Assembly: GCA_030427505.1 (NCBI GenBank)
Contig: JAUICH010000008.1
Location: 1 to 64,000, forward strand
Reading direction: 5' to 3'
DNA: 64,000 nt
DNA from: Verrucomicrobiia bacterium
GTDB taxonomy: Bacteria; Verrucomicrobiota; Verrucomicrobiia; Verrucomicrobiales; DEV007
Position 1 is the stretch's first letter; the number at the start of each line of letters is the position of its first letter. Below, piece after piece: positions 50,345-52,563 of the stretch. A program made the position numbers and the translations under genes. A model generated the notes under the pieces. The model had not been told where the DNA came from, did not search any database, and worked only from the letters and a program-made list of their open reading frames with translations.

Positions 50345-50842
50345 TTAGCTGTTCGCGAGCCGCTCGATTTTCTCCCGGGTCAGGCGGACGATGCGCCAGT
50401 CGGGCATGATGTCGGCGCCCATGGATTCGTAGAACGAAATGGCGTTCTGGTTCCAGTCCAGCACGGACCATTCATAGCGGCCGCAGCCGCGGTCTTTGGC
50501 CAGTTGGTTGCCCGCCAGGAGGAGGGCTTTGCCCACGCCTTTGCCGCGTAGCGCCGGCTTTACGTAGAGGTCTTCCAGCCACAGGCCGGGTTTGCCGATG
50601 AAGGTGGAAAACGTGGTGAAGAAAATCGCATAGCCCACGGGGTTCCCCTCCCATTCCGCGAGGAGCGCTTCGGCGGCGGGCTGGTCTCCGAAGAGGTGTT
50701 TCCGGAAATCCTCCGGCGTGGCGATGACTTGGTGGCTCAATTTCTCGAATTCCGCCAACTCACGGATCATTTCGAGAATGGTTTCGCAGTCCTCGGGACG
50801 GGCATTGCGAATATTGAGGCCCTGGCGATGGGGTTCGGTCAT
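50345..50842 (-). CDS. GNAT-family N-acetyltransferase
   Basis: ATG at 50842 gives 165 residues. The GNAT core is clear: IRNARPEDCETILEMIREL at the N-terminus, WLEDLYVKPALRGKGVGKAL as the acetyl-CoA-binding motif A, and NQNAISFYESMGA. The wording is closest to diamine acetyltransferase (SAT)-like proteins, but the substrate cannot be assigned. Its start overlaps the end of the MarR gene by four bases (ATGA), so it is co-translated with that regulator. Confidence 0.88.
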   Translation of the reverse strand: MTEPHRQGLNIRNARPEDCETILEMIRELAEFEKLSHQVIATPEDFRKHLFGDQPAAEALLAEWEGNPVGYAIFFTTFSTFIGKPGLWLEDLYVKPALRGKGVGKALLLAGNQLAKDRGCGRYEWSVLDWNQNAISFYESMGADIMPDWRIVRLTREKIERLANS

Positions 50843-51306
50843 TTGGCTGTTGATTCCATTTCCGCAGTGACGTGCTTGCCGAGTTTTTTGAGTAGCTCCG
50901 CCAGCGTTTCCTTTTCCGGTTCGCTCAGTTCTTCCATGACGCGTTCCAGGTTTTCGCTGTGTTTGCGAAAGGCGGTCTCGATCAGTTCCTGACCCGCTCC
51001 GGTCAGGCAAACCAGGCACACCCGCCGGTCTTCCGGGCTGGCGTCACGCCGCACGAGGCCTTTTTTCTCCAACCGGTCCACGGCGGTGGTGATGGACCCG
51101 CTGGTCAGCAGGACTTTCCGGCCGATGGTGTTCACTGGCGTGGGACCTTTGTGCAGGATGATTTCCAGCACCGCGAAGTCGGAGGGCCCCAAACCGGTGT
51201 CGGCAATGCTCTTCCGGTCGAAATCCTCCAGGGCACGATTGGCCCGGGAGAGAATCAACCGGAGCCGCGTGGCCTGGAGGGGTGTTGAGGGCGCTTTCCC
51301 GTCCAT
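50839..51306 (-). CDS. MarR-family transcriptional regulator
   Basis: The 155-residue protein has the MarR winged helix: DFAVLEIILHKGPTPVNTIGRKV, recognition helix LLTSGSITTAVDRLEKKGLV (about 70-90) and wing RRDASPEDRRVCLVCLTGAG. Long flanking helices serve dimerisation. It forms a two-gene operon with the GNAT acetyltransferase, which it may autoregulate together with itself. It is divergent from the radical-SAM gene, 177 bases away; the LexA-like palindrome in that gap lies next to the radical-SAM gene, not this one. Confidence 0.9.
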   Translation of the reverse strand: MDGKAPSTPLQATRLRLILSRANRALEDFDRKSIADTGLGPSDFAVLEIILHKGPTPVNTIGRKVLLTSGSITTAVDRLEKKGLVRRDASPEDRRVCLVCLTGAGQELIETAFRKHSENLERVMEELSEPEKETLAELLKKLGKHVTAEMESTAK

Positions 51307-51458: not shown

Positions 51459-51478
51459 AACTGTTCTTTTGAACAGTT
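51459..51478 (+). promoter_or_regulatory. Probable LexA (SOS) box
   Basis: AACTGTTCTTTTGAACAGTT has perfect eight-base arms around TTTT and contains TGTTC-N4-GAACA, the motif reported for Verrucomicrobia LexA. It ends five bases before the ATG of the radical-SAM gene (51484), where bound repressor would block initiation. It also fits the CTGT-N8-ACAG form of the enterobacterial box. Confidence 0.8.
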
Positions 51479-51483
51479 AAACC

Positions 51484-52563
51484 ATGAGCGCTTTCGTCAA
51501 CGCCAAAGGGCGCGGAACCACGGACAATCCCGGAAACCGCTTCGAACGGCTGCATGTGGAAATAGATGACGGCAGCCTGGAAGAGATCGCGAGGGTGGAT
51601 GAGGATTTCGAGGAGGAAGTGCCCAAGACCGAGTTCTTTAGGGACGACGCTCAGTCCATCATCACCACGAACAAGAGTCCGGACCTTGGGTTTGACGCCA
51701 GTCTCAATCCCTACCGGGGCTGCGAGCATGGCTGCGCCTACTGCTATGCGCGGCCCTATCATGAGTACCTGGGGTTTCGCGCGGGGCTCGACTTCGAAAC
51801 CAAGATCATGGTGAAGGAAAATGCGCCTGAACTACTGGAACGGGAACTGGCCGCGCGCCGGTGGACACCGCAGAACCTGGCCTGCAGCGGAGTGACGGAC
51901 CCCTACCAGCCCGTGGAGCGCCGTCTGAGAATCACCCGGGGATGCCTGGAGGTGCTGGCGAAGTTCCGGAACCCCGTAGGCATTGTGACGAAGAGCGGCC
52001 TGGTGGAACGGGATGTGGATTTCCTTCAACAGTTGGCGGCATACGATGCAGCCGGGGTGATGTTGTCGGTGACTACGCTGAACACGGAGCTGGCCATGAA
52101 GATGGAGCCCCGGGCTTCCACCCCCGCGGCCCGGCTTCGGGCGTTGAAAACGCTTTCAAGCGCGGGCATTCCCTGTGGGGTCTCCGTGGCGCCGATCATT
52201 CCGGGGCTGAACGATCACGAGATTCCCGCCATCCTGGAAGCCGCCGCCGATCACGGCGCACAGTTCGCGGTTTATACGATGCTCCGGCTGCCCTATGCGG
52301 TGAAAGACGTTTTCACGGGCTGGCTGGACCGTCACTACGCCGGGCACAGGGGCAAGGTCTTGGGCCGGGTCGGGAAAGCGCGGGGAGGAAAGCTGAACGA
52401 AAGCGGATTTGGCAGCCGGATGAAAGGAGAGGGGCCTGTCGCGGAAGAGATCGAGAGGCTATTCGACGTCAGCGTTCGGAAGCACCGGCTGAACCGGAGC
52501 CGCATGGTTTTTTCCACGGCGGCGTTCCGCCGGTCTCAGCCGGGGCAGTTGGAGCTATTCTGA
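51484..52563 (+). CDS. Radical-SAM protein of the PA0069/spore-photoproduct-lyase-like family
   Basis: The 359-residue protein begins with the family opening KGRGTTDNPGNRFE, then the radical-SAM cluster motif CEHGCAYC inside NPYRGCEHGCAYCYARPYHE, followed by the barrel strands ACSGVTDPYQPVERRLRITRG, TKSGLVERDVDFL and VSVAPIIPGLND. The family (Rv2578c/PA0069) is related to SplB, which repairs the spore photoproduct in DNA; activity of this branch is not established. A LexA-type operator just upstream suggests SOS control and therefore a DNA-repair role. No strong Shine-Dalgarno is visible. Confidence 0.9.
   Translation: MSAFVNAKGRGTTDNPGNRFERLHVEIDDGSLEEIARVDEDFEEEVPKTEFFRDDAQSIITTNKSPDLGFDASLNPYRGCEHGCAYCYARPYHEYLGFRAGLDFETKIMVKENAPELLERELAARRWTPQNLACSGVTDPYQPVERRLRITRGCLEVLAKFRNPVGIVTKSGLVERDVDFLQQLAAYDAAGVMLSVTTLNTELAMKMEPRASTPAARLRALKTLSSAGIPCGVSVAPIIPGLNDHEIPAILEAAADHGAQFAVYTMLRLPYAVKDVFTGWLDRHYAGHRGKVLGRVGKARGGKLNESGFGSRMKGEGPVAEEIERLFDVSVRKHRLNRSRMVFSTAAFRRSQPGQLELF

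Follow-up and report, generated by a model that had tools for sequence, protein, structure and literature searches.

In the window, that is, the whole 64,000-nucleotide stretch of Verrucomicrobiia DNA analysed here, a gene for a PA0069-family radical-SAM protein is preceded by a palindrome that is very probably the LexA operator of the source organism, as predicted from its letters and their recurrence. We are strongly confident in the predicted control of the radical-SAM gene by LexA. The complete explanation, in which a LexA operator governs an SOS-induced enzyme similar to spore photoproduct lyase (SPL) that processes a DNA base lesion, is considered highly probable; a DNA lesion as the substrate of the enzyme, taken by itself, is moderately favoured. 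What this study shows by computation is the operator, which lexA and imuA share, and its conservation, together with the family and the predicted fold of the protein. The proposed mechanism is as follows. In the undamaged cell, a LexA dimer on the palindrome would block transcription of the radical-SAM gene. DNA damage would activate RecA and lead to the self-cleavage of LexA, and expression of the radical-SAM gene would begin alongside that of lexA, imuA-imuB-dnaE2, and probably of recA. The enzyme would then most likely use 5'-deoxyadenosyl-radical chemistry to reverse or process a DNA base lesion. The predicted steps of this scheme are the binding of LexA, the induction of the gene by damage, and the action on DNA as substrate. 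A DNA-repair role of the enzyme is plausible, and membership in the SOS response is compatible with such a role, short of demonstrating one.

The proposed LexA dimer site is a 20-bp palindrome, without strand assignment, at 51459..51478, adjoining the start codon of the radical-SAM gene. Read directly from the window, the sequence here is ...GTGAAACTGTTCTTTTGAACAGTTAAACCATGAGC... The arms AACTGTTC (51459-51466) and GAACAGTT (51471-51478) flank a central TTTT that has no self-complementarity. The palindrome ends 5 bases, AAACC (51479-51483), before the ATG at 51484. An earlier sequence-only reading had described a palindrome with TGTTC-N4-GAACA five bases from the ATG, and reading 51459-51478 confirmed this. 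The 14-bp core TGTTC-N4-GAACA (51462..51475, likewise unstranded) reads TGTTCTTTTGAACA, lies 8 bases from the ATG, and is identical to the core of the box before the organism's own lexA. The pattern has one exact match in the 64 kb window against 0.02 expected, and 2 of 100 shuffles of the window contained one. The whole genome (6.41 Mb) contains eight exact matches. TGTTC-N4-GAACA is reportedly the LexA motif of Verrucomicrobia, known from a different organism.

The genome has a single LexA gene. Its start codon is 8 bp from the exact box TGTTCGATAGAACA, the same spacing as at the radical-SAM gene, and an additional half-site, CTGTTC, comes after this box. An ImuA-like ORF, after which ImuB- and DnaE2-like ORFs follow, has its start overlapped by another exact box. 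The names imuA-imuB-dnaE2 are based on ORF order and sequence appearance, and the ImuA-like ORF gave no family match in Pfam/NCBIfam-type searches. Only a degenerate site, TGGACAAATGAACA, with two mismatches, was found at recA. Among relatives, 27 of 30 lexA promoters carried the box exactly or with a single mismatch. The earlier claim that the box is the LexA motif of the lineage is upheld by its presence before the organism's own lexA and imuA-imuB-dnaE2 and by its retention before lexA and PA0069 orthologues across the order.

Of 57 genomes from the family and the order, 35 contained PA0069 homologues. For 30 orthologues within the order, the box was scored as the best match in the 70 positions upstream of the gene. 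There were no mismatches in 12, one in nine, two in three, and more in six, so that these last six orthologues have no box with two or fewer mismatches. At most one mismatch was thus found in 21/30 orthologues against 1/1577 control windows from the same loci (one with a single mismatch, none with zero); the orthologue counts come from phylogenetically related sequences, and no formal P value is claimed for them. Conservation of the box upstream of orthologues had been named as a check, and the box was indeed kept. When the 24 orthologue sites with two or fewer mismatches were aligned across the order, TGTTC-N4-GAACA was kept and the flanks varied symmetrically, with variants such as ACTGTTC..GAACAGT, GTGTTC..GAACAC, and GGTGTTC..AAACACC in different species. 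Such symmetric changes fit a site bound by a dimer. At other PA0069 loci of Verrucomicrobiota, outside the order, the box was absent in most.

Two genera among the relatives showed patterns of their own. In genus g18, the LexA genes (loci L049, L053, and L056) encode the recognition helix FGFLSQTAAV, where FGFASQTAAV is otherwise found. The box at lexA reads TGTTCNNNNGAATA, and exact boxes are few in these genomes (0, 4, and 0). At the PA0069 loci of this genus (L032, L038, and L039) the box is missing or altered. It is possible that the operator drifted jointly with LexA in this genus. Six genomes of genus g19 in family f2 (G036, G043, G047, G049, G052, and G055), near-complete and 2.4-3.2 Mb in size, gave no match to LexA and none to PA0069. 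The joint absence is possibly one event.

The proposed SOS gene itself (51484..52563, plus strand) encodes a protein of 359 aa in the ORF map. The NCBIfam model NF033668 (rSAM_PA0069) matched it with 456.9 bits against a cut-off of 360, over positions 1-348 of a 348-position profile; the PA0069-type identity assigned to this ORF from its sequence was thereby borne out. The next-closest NCBIfam model was the Rv2578c family radical SAM protein (NF038135), a separate family, whose 210 bits fall below its cut-off of 430. Pfam PF04055 (Radical_SAM) gave 68 bits. The CxxxCxxC motif for the [4Fe-4S] cluster and SAM, C80-EHG-C84-AY-C87, is encoded at 51721..51744 on the plus strand. C80, C84, C87, and Y86 were invariant in 53 homologues, and Y88 was present in 45 of them. 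The protein has the cluster motif and, in its predicted model, the radical-SAM fold of this superfamily. The N-terminus is shared with orthologues, which begin at the same position and have a conserved [KR]-G-R-G-T shortly after it; this makes both the start codon and the spacing derived from it credible. Because a MarR-family gene diverges upstream and a convergent gene lies downstream, the radical-SAM gene is probably transcribed alone. A scan for viral relatives found none, and membership in a defence system was rejected, as PADLOC gave no match for the protein.

The protein had also been called SPL-like, and this description held for the fold and failed for the sequence. The AlphaFold model (pLDDT 88, pTM 0.85) matched radical-SAM enzymes in the PDB. 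Ranks 1-6 of the fold search were all SPL entries, with E about 1e-8 and TM about 0.55, and the next enzyme was SkfB at 7e-7. SPL (PDB 4FHC and related) is thus the nearest solved fold, at ~15% identity in the structural alignment. The NCBIfam SPL model TIGR04070 reached 14 bits, with its cut-off at 400, sequence searches of the PDB found no strong relative, and the sequence match to SPL was no better than that to other radical-SAM enzymes. The candidate assignment of the protein as SPL by sequence was therefore rejected. SPL belongs to a sporulation context, and the protein here has none. In SPL, C91-C95-C98 bind the cluster, Y97 and Y99 take part in radical transfer, and C141, an essential fourth cysteine, is the hydrogen donor (PMC3742179). 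Y86 and Y88 of the present protein match Y97 and Y99 by motif position, although aromatic residues within the cluster motif are common in radical-SAM enzymes. The position expected for Cys141, with spacing and strand order as the sole guides, is C134, which is a cysteine in 3/53 homologues; C154 is a cysteine in 48/53. It is possible that the protein works like SPL.

LexA recognizes the direct repeat GTTC-N7-GTTC in Alphaproteobacteria and CTGT-N8-ACAG in Gammaproteobacteria. In groups with a known LexA motif, that motif often precedes the family gene. Exact GTTC-N7-GTTC sites were found before the family gene in Azospirillum brasilense, Methylobacterium aquaticum, and Geminicoccus harenae, as well as in the regions upstream of the family genes of Sinorhizobium meliloti, Paracoccus ferrooxidans, and Sphingomonas parapaucimobilis. 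This repeat was not found before the family gene in M. bullatum or in two alphaproteobacterial MAGs. Aeromonas caviae carries CTGTATATATAAACAG, of the CTGT-N8-ACAG type, before its family gene. Both the alphaproteobacterial and the Aeromonas motifs are unrelated to TGTTC-N4-GAACA. PA0069 itself is presumably a member of the LexA regulon of P. aeruginosa. When the regions upstream of 80 distant homologues were scanned with known LexA motifs, matches were mostly absent, and clear ones were confined to Alphaproteobacteria, Aeromonas, and a few others. Perhaps the LexA motifs of the MAG lineages lie outside the known set that was tried. The Rv2578c-type gene of the actinobacterium Tsukamurella had no standard box upstream. 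At 5/80 distant loci, lexA or a DnaE-family gene is found no more than 3 kb from the PA0069-family gene: lexA in one Bacteroidetes MAG and one Planctomycetota MAG, and the DnaE-family gene in MAGs of Verrucomicrobia, Gemmatimonadetes, and Planctomycetota. At the two lexA loci (L092 and L105), the PA0069-family gene directly adjoins lexA, and no operator was identified there.

The link between LexA and a radical-SAM gene is already published for other bacteria; it is sound and not new. LexA control of splB (COG1533) in Alpha- and Betaproteobacteria was reported in 2012 (PMC3323433), and that of SplB (COG1533) in Bacteroidetes in 2021 (PMC8565304). The latter cites a 2016 Verrucomicrobia LexA study (Erill et al., Front Mol Biosci 3:33) among the sources for SOS regulation of SplB. 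These cases likewise place an SplB-type radical-SAM gene under a LexA operator, but the operator sequence and the phylum differ, and the published genes are putative counterparts of PA0069. The alphaproteobacterial examples that we inspected, some of them annotated as PA0069 family, carry the alphaproteobacterial LexA motif. The window provides one more well-supported instance of a LexA-linked gene of the PA0069/splB type. Its sequence confirms this radical-SAM family in the DNA-damage response here, as elsewhere under different operator sequences. That one gene stands behind independent operators is good evidence for a benefit of the enzyme when DNA is damaged.

LexA control may be real and the enzyme may nevertheless do something other than reverse DNA lesions, for example modify a tRNA, a protein, or a metabolite during the damage response. 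We regard this as a realistic, if less probable, alternative. The low sequence similarity to SPL, the profile search in which SkfB and NifB score above SPL, and the apparent lack of a conserved cysteine where Cys141 of SPL is expected all speak for it. On the other hand, SPL is the nearest solved fold, with an E-value roughly a hundredfold lower than that of the next enzyme, co-regulation with repair genes recurs in several groups (PMC3323433; PMC8565304), and genes of the lexA or DnaE type are neighbours of the family gene in other phyla. If the preferred DNA-lesion reading is extended to the whole family, PA0069 proteins would form a widespread class of SOS-induced radical-SAM enzymes that repair DNA in vegetative cells. 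Their lesion would differ from the spore photoproduct, their hydrogen donor would not correspond to Cys141 of SPL (C154 perhaps takes its place), and LexA control would have been gained independently in several phyla. This extension is speculative, and we consider it rather unlikely.

The palindrome might instead be the operator of the divergent MarR-family gene (50839-51306, minus strand), without any connection to SOS. Palindromes between divergent genes are frequent targets of MarR proteins, autoregulators of this family are commonly so arranged, and the two genes here diverge over a gap of 177 bp. However, tblastn found no MarR homologue at any of 109 other PA0069 loci, box-bearing ones included, and the identical box stands at lexA and imuA of the same genome. 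In addition, the box is close to the start of the radical-SAM gene and lies over 150 bp from that of the MarR gene. Since MarR is missing from the 109 loci and lexA and imuA have the same box, this reading is very improbable and was rejected. A 10-base pattern standing near a gene start by accident is the least probable reading of all and was rejected in practice by the conservation at orthologues (21/30 against 1/1577), for although a few matches are expected in a 6.4-Mb genome and some of the eight have no clear target gene, the reversed control pattern had no match across all 6.41 Mb.

Further exact boxes of the genome lie away from the genes discussed above. Two are found at C6:767186 (L006 4987) and C22:60155 (L007 4956). 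One of them lies between a Fur-family gene and an ORF resembling a cyclic-nucleotide-binding protein, and the other in a gap without an obvious gene. Contig C52 carries two exact boxes (L010 5015 and L011 5028) about 19 kb apart. Nearly identical sequence, CCTAGGATGG-TGGCATGACGGTTATTTTTTC..., follows both, which would fit the duplication of an element carrying a promoter; neither box has a clear target gene. On contig C37, a box identical to TGTTCTTTTGAACA (84092-84105; L009 4993-7444) is found 123 bp before a vsr endonuclease gene, and the genes that come next encode a C5 cytosine methylase and a restriction enzyme of the NgoMIV type. This restriction-modification operon is possibly regulated by DNA damage.
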